A DNA stretch of 64,000 nucleotides, from assembly GCA_038744685.1 (NCBI GenBank), contig JBCDMB010000001.1, positions 1-64,000 on the forward strand. The letters are read 5' to 3'. This DNA is from Verrucomicrobiota bacterium. Its GTDB lineage: Bacteria > Verrucomicrobiota > Verrucomicrobiia > Opitutales > Puniceicoccaceae. Positions 23,604-30,118 of this stretch are shown one piece after another (the stretch's first letter is position 1; each line of letters begins with the position of its first letter). The notes under the pieces were generated by a model. The model was given only the letters and a program-made list of their open reading frames with translations. It had not been told where the DNA came from and ran no database searches. The position numbers and the translations under genes were made by a program.

Positions 23604-23680
23604 CGGGATGTAGCTCAGCCTGGCAGAGCGCTGCGTTCGGGACGCAGAGGTCGCTGGTTCGAATCCAGTCATCCCGACCA
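23604..23680 (+). tRNA. tRNA-Pro (CGG)
   Basis: A 77-base cloverleaf. The acceptor arm CGGGATG pairs with CATCCCG (23670-23676). The D-arm region is TAGCTCAGCCTGGCAGAGCG. The anticodon stem CTGCG/CGCAG encloses the loop TTCGGGA, which gives anticodon CGG. The T-loop is TTCGAAT. ACCA follows the acceptor stem, so the CCA end is encoded. Accessory genes begin less than 150 bases downstream. Confidence 0.97.
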
Positions 23681-23768: not shown

Positions 23769-23818
23769 GTTTATTAAAATTGACAATATACCTATTTTTG
23801 TCGTTTTTTATAAGCATT

Positions 23819-24142
23819 ATGCAGCGTTCAGTGAATTTGCTTCCTCGTCAACGCCGCCAATTCACTCAATTCGGTGAGCGGTTAAAGTTGGCCCGTTTAC
23901 GTCGCCGCCTTTCGGCTACATTGGTGGCGGAGCGCTCTGGTATCAGTCGGGCGACGTTGCACAAGATAGAATTGGGGGATCCCAATGTGGCAATGGGGAG
24001 TTACTTTCAAGTGCTCCGAGTGTTAGGCTTGGAGGCTGATTTCGGACTATTGGCTTTGGATGATCAAATGGGTCGTAAACTTCAGGATTTGGATCTGGTT
24101 ACAAAGAAAAGGGCTCCTCGGCGAAAGGCCTTAAATGGCTGA
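23819..24142 (+). CDS. hipB: XRE-family antitoxin/repressor, HipB-like
   Basis: A 107-residue DNA-binding protein. A helix-turn-helix runs over residues 17-70 (FGERLKLARLRRRLSATLVA, then SGISRATLHKIELGDPNVAMG), which is the Cro/C1 pattern seen in HipB antitoxins. The basic tail (TKKRAPRRKALNG) could contact DNA or the toxin. The frame runs from 23780, but the ATG at 23819 is where protein-like sequence begins. It overlaps the hipA gene by 8 bases. It is expected to neutralise HipA and repress the pair. Confidence 0.85.
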   Translation: MQRSVNLLPRQRRQFTQFGERLKLARLRRRLSATLVAERSGISRATLHKIELGDPNVAMGSYFQVLRVLGLEADFGLLALDDQMGRKLQDLDLVTKKRAPRRKALNG

Positions 24143-25376
24143 GCGACCACCGATCTATGTTTATGCGGATTGGGTGTGGTTGGAGAAGCCCGCCTTGATG
24201 GGGGTGATGCATCGCTCCGTGGTGCGTGGGGAGGAGGTGCTTGCATTTGAGTATGAGCAGGAATGGTTGAAGCAGGGAGACGCTATGCTGCTTGATCCTC
24301 GTCTGCAATTGGTCCAAGGGCGTCAATATCCCGATGCGTCTAGTGCATTTGGTCTTTTGACTGACTCTGCTCCGGATCGCTGGGGGCGGTTGTTGATTCA
24401 GCGTCGAGCAGCCTTAGAGAAAGAGCCAAGGAGTTTGTATGAGTCAGACTATGTGCTCGCAGCTGCTGACACTTGCCGAATGGGCGGTTTACGCTTCAAG
24501 TTGGATTTGGATGGCGCTTTTCTCGCCGAAGATGAAGCGCTTTCAGTGCCTCCAATGCATATGCTTCGAGAGTTGGAGCAGGCGTCTCTTAACTTTGAAG
24601 CGGCAGATTCGGAAGATCCGCATTATGTGCAATGGCTGCAAATGCTGCTCGCTCCGGGGACTTCTCTCGGAGGTGCGCGACCTAAGGCCAGTGTGCTGGA
24701 TCCCGAAGGCAATCTGTGGGTGGCAAAGTTCCCTAGCCGCAACGACGAATACGATGTCGGCGCATGGGAGGGCGTGGTCACGCAGCTTGCTCATGGGGCT
24801 GGACTCAATGTCGCGTCTGCCAGAGTGGAAAAATTTTCGGGAGCCGGTCATACTTTTCTGAGCCAGCGCTTTGATCGGCAGGGGCAGAGGCGAGTGCATT
24901 TTGCTTCGGCAATGTGCCTGTTGGGCTATCAAGATGGGGACGGAGCGAAAACCGGGGCGAGCTATCTGGACTTGGTTGATTTAATCGAGCGCTATGGTGC
25001 TAATGTGGAGGCAGATCTTATAGAGTTATGGAAGCGAATCGTGTTTAATATTTGCATACATAACACGGATGATCATCTGCGAAACCATGGTTTTCTGCTT
25101 GGGGAATCTGGTTGGAAACTATCACTGGCCTACGATCTCAATCCGCAGCCTTGGGCTGTAGGATTGGCTTTGAATATCGACGAAGTTAGTAATGCCTGCG
25201 ATCTGGATTTGGCTCGGTCGGTGGGGCATTATTTCCGACTCTCAGAGCGGGAGCAGGATACTTACATCAAGGAGATCCGAGAGGCGGTTGCCGGCTGGGA
25301 TTCTATCGCAGAGAGGATGGGAATCAGTCGTGGCGAGATAGAGCGAATGCGTGTGGCGTTTGAAAACGAGTGCTAG
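24135..25376 (+). CDS. hipA: HipA-family serine/threonine kinase toxin
   Basis: A 413-residue full-length HipA. The N-subdomain-1 is residues about 5-105 (with SSAFGLLTDSAPDRWGRLL). The Gly-rich loop is GTSLGGARPKASV near 175-187, the ATP lysine lies in LWVAKFPS, the catalytic loop is IHNTDDHLRNHGF, and the metal-binding AYDLNP follows. HipA kinases phosphorylate aminoacyl-tRNA synthetases (GltX in E. coli) and halt translation; the target here is unknown. The gene is translationally coupled to hipB. It ends 30 bases from the convergent SNF2 gene. Confidence 0.9.
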   Translation: MAERPPIYVYADWVWLEKPALMGVMHRSVVRGEEVLAFEYEQEWLKQGDAMLLDPRLQLVQGRQYPDASSAFGLLTDSAPDRWGRLLIQRRAALEKEPRSLYESDYVLAAADTCRMGGLRFKLDLDGAFLAEDEALSVPPMHMLRELEQASLNFEAADSEDPHYVQWLQMLLAPGTSLGGARPKASVLDPEGNLWVAKFPSRNDEYDVGAWEGVVTQLAHGAGLNVASARVEKFSGAGHTFLSQRFDRQGQRRVHFASAMCLLGYQDGDGAKTGASYLDLVDLIERYGANVEADLIELWKRIVFNICIHNTDDHLRNHGFLLGESGWKLSLAYDLNPQPWAVGLALNIDEVSNACDLDLARSVGHYFRLSEREQDTYIKEIREAVAGWDSIAERMGISRGEIERMRVAFENEC

Positions 25377-25406: not shown

Positions 25407-28154
25407 TTATTCTGTAGCTCCTCGTTGTTGGCTTGATGGCGGCGTCTGGGCCAGCGAAGCGAACCTTGCGAAACTGGCCGCAAGGTTTTGAAGGCTGTCT
25501 TCGTCTTGAAGTGTCAATTGCAGTGTTGGACGGCCAGATTCGTCTCGGGTGACACATTGACTGAGCCCTTCCGCAAATTGTTTCTGCAATGCATTTTGTG
25601 CTTCGATGGCTTCTTTACTTGTAGGCCTAGGCTGCAGCTTTTCGAGAAATGCGAAGGTGGCGCTGAGCATTTGTCCTCCGCTAGCGGCGAGTTCGCTACG
25701 TCGAGTCTGAAGGGCTGCTTCCGTTTCGCGTTGTTGGCTTTCATCAACATTTGCGTGTGGCTCAGATCCGAGGAGCACTTCGAGTCGTCGCTTGAGTTCT
25801 TCGATACCGCTTTCCATGTCGACTCGATCAATCTCTGAATTGATATCGATTGCTGCGCTGGCGAGTTCTTTTTTAGCCGAAATCGTATCGAGTAAGCGTT
25901 CCTCAAGGGTGTCTTCCGTGACGAGCACGTAGACGTGGACGGGGCGTTTTTGGCCCATGCGGTGCGCACGGGCAATGCGTTGCTCAAGGATAGCGGGGTT
26001 CCAGGGAAGATCGACGTTGATGACGGTGTCAGCTGCTTGGAGATTCAGACCCGTCGAGCCTGCATTCGTCATGATAATGAAGCGGCAGTCGCTATCTCCT
26101 TGGAAGGTTTTAACGAGCTGCTGCCGCTTCTTCTGAGGCACTTTTCCGTCGAGCCGGACATAGCCTGCTTGAGCTTCGACGAGTTGCTCTTCGATGAGAT
26201 CGAGCATCTGCGTCCACTCGGAGAAAACGACGACTTTACGCTCGGGCTCTGCGGTCAACTGTTCGATCAGCTCTTTGAGTTTCTCGAGCTTTGATGAGTG
26301 GCCAGGGCGTTGCTTGTCTACGAGTGTGGTGCTGTCCGCTGCCATGCGGCACATGAGCAGTGCCTTTTGCAGGCGGATGAAATCCATCTCAGTGAGATAG
26401 TTTTTCCGGGTGATGGCTGCCACGGTTTGCGCATGGACGGCATGAAGTTCCGCTTGCTCCTCTTTTGCGGGGATACGCACGATTTGGGTGGTGCGAGGGG
26501 GAAGCTCGCCTAGGACTTCGGCGCGTGTGCGACGGAGAAGAATCGGGGCGATGCGCTTACGCAGCTGATCCAGATTTTCGATGGCGGTAACGCGGCCGTC
26601 TTCGTTGACTGATCGATGCTGATTGAAAAAGCGATAGGCTGGGCCGAGGCGCTGGTCGTCGATAAATTCAACGACTGAGTAGAGCTCATCGATGCGGTTT
26701 TCCATTGGTGTGCCGCTGAGCACGAGCGCAAAGGTGGAGCGCAGTGCTTTGATAATTCGGCTGGTTTTTGCCTCCCAGTTTTTGATGCGTTGGCCTTCGT
26801 CGAGTATGATGAGGTCCCATTTGCAGGACTCGACGCTTAGAATGTCGCGCATGATTTGCTCGTAGTTGCAAATCGTGAAAAAGGCTTCGCTCGCGTATTG
26901 CTGAGGTCGTTCGGCTGCGGAGCCCAGAATCTGGCGTGCGCTCAGATCAGAAAAGCGTCCGATCTCGGTCAGCCACTGTGATTTGAGCGAGGCTGGGCAA
27001 ATGATGAGGACTTTCTTGATATTGGCCTCTGCTTTGAGGTAAGCGGCTGTGCCAATACCCTGAATGGTTTTACCGAGACCCATGTCATCGGCAAGGATGG
27101 CGCGGCAAGCTCCGGCGGCAAAGGCGATACCGTCCAACTGATAGGGGAGTAGTTCGGTTTTTAGAAGGGATTTTCGAAGAGGGTGCTCTTCAGGGTTTTC
27201 GCGGATGATGGCGGCCTTTGTTTCGAGATGGTCGCGCAGTAAGATCGCCTGAATCCACTCTTCCGCATCAGGGTAGATGCGTACTTCATGTCCGTCGGCT
27301 TCAATTTGGCGAATTAGTTCAATCAGACGGCGAACGGCTTCGGGTGCTGCCGGATTGGGAAGTGAGGCGTATGCTTTGAGCCGAGTCCGTGTTTTGGTGA
27401 ATAGCTTTGGTTTTTCAGGACGGAGTAGGCGAGGGGTGATGGTTTCTCCGTAGTCGAGAGCCACGGCAAACTCATGCTGAACATAGGGTTCAGCAAGTTG
27501 TTCGGCAGAAAATTTTCGACGGACGTAGGCCTTTAGCTTGATGAGGTGTTTACAGGTGCCGAGCTGGTTCGTCTTGAAATCGCGGCAACTGCAATAGGCA
27601 TCGCCGGGCTCAAAGCTGCGAAGCGCGGCGCGGTAGGTTTTGCCGGATTGGTAATTGTAGATGGTGTAGTCAGTCCACGGGGTGCTCGGGTCTTGACTGG
27701 TGATTTTCATCCGCTCCTCTCTCGCTCGCTTTTCACGCTGGACGAGGGCATAGGCCCTGAGCGCTTTTGGATCGAGTGTTTCAAATGCGGGTTCTTCACC
27801 CGGAGGAATGGAGAGGCCAAGTTCGAGTTTGTTTTCCAAGATTAGGCCGATTACAGCACCTTTGAGTTCGCTCTCCTGTTCGCAATGAGTGCAGGTGATT
27901 TGGAGCCGGTTACGTTTGTGCTCCGAGAGGTCGAGCGTGACGACCGCAGTTCGTGTTCCGCCGATTGCTTCTGGAAAGCGTATCTGTATGCGTTTGCGCC
28001 CCAGTTTCACCTGTTGTGAGATATTGATCTCGTATTGACGCCCTTCGCTAAGCAGGCGCTTCGCATCTTGGCCGAGTAATTTTTCGGCGCGCTTCAGATT
28101 GAGGCGAGAAAGATGATCGTGAAGTGTGAGTTTCTTTGAGGGCTTTGTTGGCAT
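25407..28154 (-). CDS. SNF2-family ATPase with SWIM zinc finger
   Basis: A 915-residue DNA translocase. An N-terminal region has a CTHC pair and then a SWIM zinc finger CSCRDFKTNQLGTCKHL near residues 187-205. The SNF2 motor follows: DDMGLGKTIQG (Walker A, near 358), ILDEGQRIKNWEAK (motif II), LSGTPMENR (motif III), then helicase C with GSTGLNLQAADTVINVDLPWNP and RAHRMGQKRPVHVYVL near 700-740. Such SWIM-SNF2 proteins act in chromatin-like remodelling or stalled RNA polymerase/repair, and some belong to defence islands. The start is set at the ATG at 28154 (MPTKPSKKL). It sits convergent to hipBA and divergent from hipBST. Confidence 0.9.
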   Translation of the reverse strand: MPTKPSKKLTLHDHLSRLNLKRAEKLLGQDAKRLLSEGRQYEINISQQVKLGRKRIQIRFPEAIGGTRTAVVTLDLSEHKRNRLQITCTHCEQESELKGAVIGLILENKLELGLSIPPGEEPAFETLDPKALRAYALVQREKRAREERMKITSQDPSTPWTDYTIYNYQSGKTYRAALRSFEPGDAYCSCRDFKTNQLGTCKHLIKLKAYVRRKFSAEQLAEPYVQHEFAVALDYGETITPRLLRPEKPKLFTKTRTRLKAYASLPNPAAPEAVRRLIELIRQIEADGHEVRIYPDAEEWIQAILLRDHLETKAAIIRENPEEHPLRKSLLKTELLPYQLDGIAFAAGACRAILADDMGLGKTIQGIGTAAYLKAEANIKKVLIICPASLKSQWLTEIGRFSDLSARQILGSAAERPQQYASEAFFTICNYEQIMRDILSVESCKWDLIILDEGQRIKNWEAKTSRIIKALRSTFALVLSGTPMENRIDELYSVVEFIDDQRLGPAYRFFNQHRSVNEDGRVTAIENLDQLRKRIAPILLRRTRAEVLGELPPRTTQIVRIPAKEEQAELHAVHAQTVAAITRKNYLTEMDFIRLQKALLMCRMAADSTTLVDKQRPGHSSKLEKLKELIEQLTAEPERKVVVFSEWTQMLDLIEEQLVEAQAGYVRLDGKVPQKKRQQLVKTFQGDSDCRFIIMTNAGSTGLNLQAADTVINVDLPWNPAILEQRIARAHRMGQKRPVHVYVLVTEDTLEERLLDTISAKKELASAAIDINSEIDRVDMESGIEELKRRLEVLLGSEPHANVDESQQRETEAALQTRRSELAASGGQMLSATFAFLEKLQPRPTSKEAIEAQNALQKQFAEGLSQCVTRDESGRPTLQLTLQDEDSLQNLAASFARFASLAQTPPSSQQRGATE

Positions 28155-28588
28155 ATTGCTTCGAAGTATTTTCCCTGATCTACCGACGACAATAGCAAAG
28201 CGATACTTCAAGGATTTAGGGACTTCGATCTCCTGGTTTATATACGTAAAGCTCTTCTTATGAGAGGCTTGTGTTGTTTTAGGCTGGTGTTTGAGCTTTG
28301 CCTGTTGGGGAAGTAGGAATCATATTTGAGTCCTGAGGTTCGACCAACCTTCAATAATGCCTCTCTGGTAGTGTAAACAGATACCCTCTCGGATTTGCCA
28401 TTGAGGTAGGTTATCCCATTTCGATTAATTTTGCCTGATATAGCAGGCGAAACTGGCTGGATATTAGGAAAAATAGCCTCGATTCCTAATTTATCTAGAA
28501 ATATGCATGTAATAACATGCAATATACTTGATAAATTTAGATCTTCTTAGATTCTGATACGGAGTTAACCCAGTAAGCCTGAAATACC
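28155..28588. other. A+T-rich intergenic region between SNF2 and hipBST
   Basis: A 434-base spacer that must hold both divergent promoters. A 94-codon open frame on the minus strand (28238-28522) is visible but resembles no family I know and has no clear start signal; I do not call it. The region contains the palindrome at 28504-28521. Confidence 0.5.
28504..28528 (+). promoter_or_regulatory. Palindrome and candidate -10, likely hipBST operator/promoter
   Basis: TGCATGT-AATA-ACATGCA (28504-28521) is a perfect 7-4-7 inverted repeat. It is followed directly by TATACT at 28523-28528, a good -10. The palindrome would lie between -35 and -10, where an XRE repressor would block RNA polymerase. The HTH gene starts 60 bases further on. 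Function is inferred. Confidence 0.45.
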
Positions 28589-28828
28589 ATGCGCGCTTCA
28601 GATATAGGATCGCTGATCGTTTTCCATAGAAAGAAAGCCGGTCTGACGCAAATTGAGCTCGCCAAGTTGGCTGGAGTGAGTCGCTTCGTGGTGCAGGATA
28701 TTGAGGCTGGAACAGGTAGGACTACTTGGAGAAACTTGGAGTCTGTGCTTAGTTCCCTTAATCTTGAACTGGAGCCGAACGGGCCACTTGTTGAGGAATG
28801 GAAATCTCGGAGAAGGGCTTCTGAATGA
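28589..28828 (+). CDS. hipB: XRE-family HTH protein, HipB of a HipBST-type module
   Basis: A 79-residue protein that is almost all helix-turn-helix (residues 8-60: SLIVFHRKKAGLTQIELAKL, then GVSRFVVQDIEAGTGRTTW), followed by LNLELEPNGP, typical of HipB C-termini. It is the first gene of three that overlap in sequence (stop overlaps hipS by 4 bases). In E. coli O127 HipBST, HipB augments neutralisation and regulates the operon. Confidence 0.88.
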   Translation: MRASDIGSLIVFHRKKAGLTQIELAKLAGVSRFVVQDIEAGTGRTTWRNLESVLSSLNLELEPNGPLVEEWKSRRRASE

Positions 28829-29190
28829 GTGCGGATGAAAGGTCTATCGGGCGCCGTGCTGAGGTCTACCAACAGGGGCAACTCGCTGGGTATTTGGAAG
28901 AGGAGGGTGATGATTCGTGGCGGTTTTCTTATCTGCCGAACTACGTTGGATTGGCTGTTTCCTTGACGATGCCTAAGCAGACACAGCCTTATCTATTCAA
29001 AACCTTCCCACCGTTGTTTGATGGCCTCTTGCCGGAAGGCCTTCAACTGGAAGCTTTGCTGCGCATCCACAAGCTCGATCGTTACGACCTTTTTGGCCAA
29101 TTGATGATTGTTGGCGAGGATCTGGTTGGCTCCCTTTCGGTCCGTCCAGCTAAAGAGTCGTCTGAAGAGGAGGCTGGCCATCATGACTAG
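28825..29190 (+). CDS. hipS: HipS-like protein (HipA N-subdomain-1 as a separate gene)
   Basis: A 121-residue protein matching only the N-terminal domain of HipA: RAEVYQQGQLAGYLEEEG, then FSYLPNY, LSLTMPKQTQPYLF-like beta strands and the FDGLLPEGLQLEAL...LDRYDLFGQLMIVGEDLVGSLSV segment. It ends where the kinase core would begin. In the described HipBST system this piece is the antitoxin that binds the kinase HipT. It overlaps hipB by 4 bases and hipT by 8, so the three are co-translated. Because hipS and hipT are in different frames with proper starts and stops, this is a real split rather than a frameshifted hipA. Confidence 0.85.
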   Translation: MSADERSIGRRAEVYQQGQLAGYLEEEGDDSWRFSYLPNYVGLAVSLTMPKQTQPYLFKTFPPLFDGLLPEGLQLEALLRIHKLDRYDLFGQLMIVGEDLVGSLSVRPAKESSEEEAGHHD

Positions 29191-30118
29191 TTGTCCGATC
29201 ACTTTGGAGCCCGCACCCAAAGGGAAGCTGTATTCGGAAGCGGGTCTGAAGATGATGCATCCTCGGTTGGCGGGTCTGCACGCATTGGAATATTCTGCAG
29301 AAGAGCAGATCAAGCAGGCTCGTATGCGTGCGGACAAGATGTCGATACAAGGAGTTCAGCCGAAACTTTCAGCGGTTCTGCGAATTAGTAAGCAATCGAT
29401 CGAATTGGTTGATAGCGCAGGGAAGTTTATTCTCAAACCCAACCCACCGACTTTTGAGGAAGTTCCCGCCAACGAAGCACTCACAATGAGGATGGCTGCC
29501 ACAGCAGGTATCGATGTTCCTGCTCACGGTCTTCTTCGGGCGGTAGACGATAGTTGGGTCTATTTTGTGAAGCGCTATGACCGGGTAGGACGCTCGGAGA
29601 GGGTGCATGTTGAAGACTTCGCCCAACTGATTGGTGCGAATCGAGATACAAAGTATGATAGTTCATTGGAAAGGGTCGCTGAGCTGGTCGAAAGATTCTG
29701 TACATTCCCGGCGCTCGAGAAGCCCAAGTTGGCTAAGCGCTTACTCTTCTGTTTCCTTACGGGAAACGAGGACATGCATTTGAAGAATTTTTCGCTGTGG
29801 CATCGCGGTGGAGTCGTGTCGCTGGCACCAGGCTATGATTTTTTAAATTCCACTTTGGTCTTGGGTGGAGCCAAAGAGGAGAGTGCTTTGCCTATTAGCG
29901 GCAAAAAGAAGCATCTGACGCGGAAGCTGTGGCTGAGTTATTTTTGCAACGAGAGGTTGGGTCTCAGCGAAAACCAAATTGAGACCATTCTGAACGGATT
30001 GAGTGCAGCACTTCCCAAGTGGAGAGAGTTGCTCGGTAGTAGCTATCTTTCAGAAGGGGCCAAAGAAGGCTACAGAGAGATTCTGGAGCAAAGGGTTGAT
30101 CGCTTGAAACTAAGTTAG
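29183..30118 (+). CDS. hipT: HipT-like kinase toxin (HipA kinase core)
   Basis: A 311-residue kinase lacking the HipA N-subdomain-1. The Gly-rich loop is MSIQGVQPKLS with SIQ at residues 54-56, the site of regulatory autophosphorylation in HipT (Ser-Ile-Ser in E. coli O127). The ATP lysine is in FILKPNPP, the catalytic loop is TGNEDMHLKNF near 192-202, and the metal-binding APGYDFLNS near 214-222. E. coli HipT phosphorylates tryptophanyl-tRNA synthetase; the target here is unknown. The ATG at 29183 lies inside the end of hipS. An upstream in-frame start at 29108 would duplicate hipS sequence in another frame and is unlikely. Confidence 0.87.
   Translation: MTSCPITLEPAPKGKLYSEAGLKMMHPRLAGLHALEYSAEEQIKQARMRADKMSIQGVQPKLSAVLRISKQSIELVDSAGKFILKPNPPTFEEVPANEALTMRMAATAGIDVPAHGLLRAVDDSWVYFVKRYDRVGRSERVHVEDFAQLIGANRDTKYDSSLERVAELVERFCTFPALEKPKLAKRLLFCFLTGNEDMHLKNFSLWHRGGVVSLAPGYDFLNSTLVLGGAKEESALPISGKKKHLTRKLWLSYFCNERLGLSENQIETILNGLSAALPKWRELLGSSYLSEGAKEGYREILEQRVDRLKLS

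Follow-up and report, generated by a model that had tools for sequence, protein, structure and literature searches.

The 64,000-nt stretch of DNA analyzed here (the window) very probably carries a complete HipBST operon, a tripartite toxin-antitoxin module of the HipBST(Lp) subclade, which is a published subtype known best from Legionella, with HipT as the kinase toxin, HipS as the antitoxin and HipB as a repressor acting on three phased operators. The genes, the Gly-rich loop, the homology, the fold and the operator array are directly observed at this locus. The module is an ordinary, seemingly intact new member of this subclade in a Verrucomicrobiota-type genome. The part worth following is the phased triple operator array, which was absent from a preliminary description of this DNA.

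The genes hipB, hipS and hipT follow each other in this order on one strand and overlap (Table 1), by 4 nt (ATGA) between hipB and hipS and by 8 nt (ATGACTAG) between hipS and hipT. HipS is homologous to N-subdomain 1 of HipA and is encoded separately from the kinase, while HipT is a core kinase with the Gly-rich loop and the catalytic and Mg motifs that lacks N-subdomain 1, as in tripartite HipBST systems. Coordinates and Pfam domains agree with the preliminary description, which had read the locus as an HTH protein, a detached HipA N-domain and a kinase core encoded by three overlapping genes. HipB additionally matched TIGR03070 couple_hipB (E=1e-14), below the curated cut-off of that model. 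The TTG at 29108, which appeared in an automatic ORF list, was ruled out as the hipT start by N-terminal alignment to HipT(Lp); the start is the ATG at 29183, from which residue 1 aligns with residue 1 of HipT(Lp) and from which the numbering S54-I55-Q56 follows. The hipBST unit, previously taken to begin at 28589, reaches upstream to at least 28432, where the operator array begins. A promoter scan yielded no sigma-70 match.

Table 1. Predicted operators and genes of the hipBST unit, with positions in the window.
Feature	Position	Strand	Description
O3, predicted HipB operator TGCCTGATATAGCAGGCG	28432..28449		PWM 21.2 bits, top site in the 64-kb window
O2, predicted HipB operator TGCATGTAATAACATGCA	28504..28521		PWM 19.4 bits; inverted repeat; 72 bp from O3
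O1, predicted HipB operator AGCCTGAAATACCATGCG	28576..28593		PWM 16.6 bits; 72 bp from O2; overlaps hipB ATG
hipB	28589..28828	+	79 aa, predicted HTH repressor; recognition region VSRFVVQDIEAGTG; HTH_3 E=1.2e-7 (Pfam)
hipS	28825..29190	+	121 aa, putative antitoxin, detached HipA N-subdomain 1; Couple_hipA E=6.7e-21
hipT	29183..30118	+	311 aa, putative HipA-type Ser/Thr kinase toxin; HipA_C E=2.2e-45

The closest solved relative of HipT is HipT of Legionella pneumophila (SVQ, Ser54, Gln56). The match to HipT(Lp) is colinear over residues 1-309 at about 50% identity (E=4.5e-96, 325 bits), as compared with about 24% identity to HipT(Ec) (E=6e-25, 91 bits). An AlphaFold2 model of HipT (pLDDT 87.1) reached a TM of 0.96 to 7vkc/7wcf at 49% identity, and the loop 53-58 was the sole segment with pLDDT <50. 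This Gly-rich loop reads K52-M-S54-I55-Q56-G57, so that the translation confirmed the Ser-Ile-Gln at residues 54-56, with one of two serines, noted in the preliminary description. The catalytic residues are D197, H199 and N202, and D219 binds Mg. All four kinase motifs and all three reading frames of hipBST are intact. The residues S54, Q56, K61, K85, R131, R134, D145, R154, D197, H199, K201, N202 and D219 of the Lp structures are present with identical numbering; K52, S54, Q56, G57, N195/D197 (catalytic) and D219 (Mg) are invariant in an alignment across 10 homologs. Judged by such alignments, the conservation of HipT residues is far beyond chance.

HipS also matched its Legionella counterpart best (7vkb_B, E=6e-27, 97 bits, vs about 2e-11 and 47 bits for HipS(Ec)). 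The preliminary description had taken E. coli O127 as the model, and for both proteins these scores point to Legionella instead. HipS lacks Trp65 of E. coli: it carries PEG-Leu-Gln (PEGLQL; Leu73-Gln74) where HipS(Ec) has PEG-Trp (Trp65) and HipS(Lp) PEG-Ile-Met (Ile65-Met66), so that its wedge position matches neither of the two antitoxins studied so far. In the alignment, Glu71 corresponds to E63 of HipS(Ec), and the partner of HipT R154 is Asp66 here vs E58 in Lp. The C-terminal tail is longer than that of HipS(Lp).

The SIQ loop had been regarded as an unusual variant, a view that did not hold. S-Psi-Q defines a named HipT group that includes HipT(Lp) (eLife 2023; PMC10627512), and SVQ/SIQ were reported in Legionella homologs by Lin et al. 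(PMC10653801). We assembled 90 homologous loci, 80 by genome scan and 10 by phylum searches, from Verrucomicrobiota, Bacteroidota, Legionellales, other Gammaproteobacteria, Desulfobacterota-type bacteria, Spirochaetota, Planctomycetota, Chlorobiota and others. The loop was SIQ in 71/90, SVQ in 18/90 and SVG in 1/90; as the homologs were selected by similarity, the total of 89/90 with S[IV]Q describes the clade. The hipS gene was present in 90/90 and hipB in 88/90 of these loci, and hipS and hipT overlapped by exactly 4 nt in 76/90. The sole SVG locus (L064) was also the only one of the 90 with an E. coli-like Trp in HipS. Just outside the clade, split HipTs carry [S/T/A]-[V/I]-P at this loop, and two fused HipAs carry S-[I/L]-S.

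Similarity, trees and structure match all place HipT among sequences of the HipT(Lp) type, and it shares their S-[I/V]-Q loop. The S-Psi-S double serine and the HipS Trp65 of HipBST(Ec) are both lacking, with SIQ and Leu73 in their places. Monophyly of the HipT(Lp) type was not rejected (p-AU 0.35), with the long-branch fused HipA relatives unplaced. Four of these fused relatives (L024, L025, L006 and L007, two of them with S-[I/L]-S) adjoin a Verrucomicrobial HipT clade on long branches, and repeats spaced by 69-71 or 144 bp occur in 3/4. Refusion of the fused HipA of L024, L025 and L007 inside the HipT clade is a possible reading of these trees.

How the module may work can be proposed by analogy with the characterized relative. 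HipT would phosphorylate a cellular target and thereby arrest growth. HipS would bind HipT and push the Gly-rich loop (P-loop) outward, blocking ATP binding, and it is by this P-loop ejection that it probably neutralizes the toxin. HipB would be non-neutralizing, bind O3, O2 and O1 and recruit HipT or HipST, resulting in repression of the operon. Ser54 is probably autophosphorylated without inhibition of the kinase, the phosphoserine being tolerated, and with Gln56 in place of the E. coli-type second serine, HipS binding would not be gated by a second phosphoserine. In Legionella, S54 of HipT(Lp) is phosphorylated in vivo and the S54A and S54D mutants are still toxic (PMC10653801), while pSer54 HipT(Lp) binds the ATP analog AMP-PNP (PMC9325769). 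The suggestion in the preliminary description that regulation by HipS may differ was therefore right in direction, but such a difference had already been published for Legionella. Since neither TrpS nor GltX rescued HipT(Lp) toxicity, a tRNA synthetase target, which the preliminary description presumed, should not be assumed here, TrpS included. Replacing E. coli (two phosphoserines, TrpS) by Legionella (one serine) as the model alters which experiment makes sense.

Upstream of the genes, O3, O2 and O1 are 18-nt near-palindromes, evenly spaced at 72/72 bp as in the HipBST(Lp) subclade. No other site in the window scores as high with the PWM (next unrelated site, 9.3 bits), and only these three matched the 16-nt IUPAC pattern GCMTGWWATANCANGC with ≤1 mismatch in the 3.64-Mb genome; as both PWM and pattern were built from sites including O1-O3, the independent evidence lies in the spacing and the lack of further copies, not in the scores. 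The placement of O1 over the hipB start is repeated in most close relatives. For Legionella, three operators with 53-bp gaps and HipB binding by EMSA have been published. As far as our literature search found, published operator data are restricted to this genus; we found no paper that extends the array to other phyla or notes two phased spacings, though such reports may exist elsewhere.

Across phyla, exactly three sites were found with the PWM in 55/83 distinct loci. Nearly all distances between adjacent sites (124/131) were 60-62 or 70-73 bp, most often 71 (40 cases), 72 (37) or 61 bp (31). The means of the two classes, 71.4 and 61.1 bp, differ by 10.3 bp, about one DNA turn. In a motif-free test, lags of 30-130 were scored for repeat and palindrome together; the best-scoring lag was 60-62 or 70-73 bp in 67/83 loci, compared with 7/75 control stretches taken downstream and 39/415 dinucleotide shuffles. 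The corresponding Fisher p-values of about 1e-20 and 1e-39 overstate the case because of the relatedness among the loci and because the bands were picked after the first histogram. Both spacings are mixed in three loci (L054, L116 and L019), and mapped onto the HipT tree, the spacing state shows no fewer than 6 changes. The operator word varies from clade to clade in step with the HipB recognition region: half-sites are TGC with VSRxVVQDLEAG, TTA with VGKTVVFDIEKG and TTCCC with VGKNLVYELE.

Related arrangements were seen at the margins of the set. Two IMG/VR contigs classed as viral, L141 and L142, encode HipT relatives with 63% and 53% identity, respectively; L141 has an array of the same kind, with distances of 71 and 73 bp and O1 on the hipB start, and L142 showed no site with either PWM. 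The split HipT loci L026-L042, with the [S/T/A]-[V/I]-P loop, have TATACCC...GGGTATA palindromes at 40-41 bp (or 80-81), a fixed spacing that sets them apart from the Lp type.

On a reading about which we are evenly divided, HipBST(Lp)-type promoters in many phyla retain a triple array with a spacing locked to one DNA turn (61 or 71-72 bp) and a word that varies with the HipB recognition helix. This would imply that three HipB(ST) complexes form a phased higher-order promoter complex, bent, wrapped or looped, in which geometry and not sequence is selected and which may keep the kinase restrained on DNA. The array provides a concrete geometric constraint on HipBST promoter repression, the HipBST structures that we found being DNA-free, and can be used as a marker for finding and typing such operons.

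To the left of a tRNA-Pro(CGG) gene, dxs, xseB, an M48 protease gene and an endonuclease-like gene (names read from sequence) are common to the window and both genus-mates. To its right, the contents differ. The window continues with a hipBA pair, an SNF2-type helicase gene and hipBST, in that order; in one genus-mate a large gene, serine-recombinase-like as read from sequence, directly adjoins the tRNA, and in the other a sensor-kinase-like gene is present. With its conserved left side and a cargo that differs in three congeners, the tRNA-Pro gene (23604-23680; with L134, L135) looks like an insertion hotspot. HipT is absent from both genus-mates. The pattern fits horizontal gain at a variable site linked to the tRNA. 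A second copy of the tRNA-Pro 3′ end, sought as an att repeat, was absent from the window and the genome. The right edge of the island was not found either, because the flanking genes are non-syntenic in the genus-mates. A phage origin was rejected after zero matches among 50,697 phage records.

The hipBA pair directly after tRNA-Pro forms a second hip locus (23816-25376, + strand), 3.2 kb upstream of hipBST, and encodes a HipB-like HTH protein and a 413-aa fused HipA; a search upstream of this locus gave no hipBST-like operator array. The SNF2-family helicase between both hip loci (25407-28211, - strand, 934 aa) resembles the DpdE/ZorD/DrmD helicase domains of PADLOC and scored below the equivalog cut-offs of NCBIfam.

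Other explanations of the locus were weighed against the HipBST(Lp)-type operon. Were it an E. coli O127-type HipBST, HipT would phosphorylate TrpS, HipS would act by a Trp wedge and the loss of the second serine would be a derived regulatory defect. Gene order and domain split are identical, yet the low identity and score of the HipT(Ec) match, a HipS without Trp, an S-Psi-Q loop that is the state of the clade and no loss, and the failure of TrpS to rescue HipT(Lp) toxicity make this very improbable; HipT identity, the missing Trp and the loop rule out O127 as a model for the locus. We give about as little credence to a decayed or domesticated relic with an inactive HipT and a HipB retained as regulator. 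Such a relic would agree with the patchy distribution and with two genus-mates without HipT, but the four kinase motifs, the clade-invariant residues, the three frames and the three operators are all intact.

The 61/71-72-bp repeats might instead have nothing to do with HipBST assembly and serve as promoter elements or as sites for some regulator besides HipB. Binding experiments are limited to Legionella, and O1 overlaps the hipB start codon, both of which leave some room for this explanation. Against it, the operator word follows the HipB recognition region, the sites are confined to this operon in the genome, and the Legionella EMSA shows HipB binding at equivalent sites, so that we consider it very unlikely, and predicted HipB operators remain our preferred reading.

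Compared with known systems, the locus shares an HTH repressor and a HipA-fold kinase with HipBA of E. coli K-12 and Shewanella oneidensis; in HipBA, the kinase is fused to N-subdomain 1, HipB is the antitoxin and phosphorylation of HipA Ser150 inactivates the kinase; the O1-O2 sites of E. coli HipBA are 28 bp apart (counted from the oligonucleotide in PMC3376134). HipBST of E. coli O127:H6 (PDB 7ab3-7ab5) has the same gene order, a HipS that is the detached N-subdomain 1 and the same kinase motifs, but differs in a HipT of about 24% identity, an SIS loop with two phosphoserines and HipS Trp65, and was published as being without this operator motif. HipBST(Lp) (PDB 7vkb, 7vkc, 7wcf, 8ezr, 8ezs) is alike in its three-gene order, a colinear and about 50% identical HipT, the S54/Q56 loop, a HipS without Trp and three operators at about 71-72 bp. 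The differences from it are SIQ here vs SVQ, operator half-sites TGC vs TTA, O1 on the hipB ATG vs 24 nt upstream, a HipS of 121 vs 102 aa with Leu-Gln vs Ile-Met, and the 8-nt hipS-hipT overlap found here.
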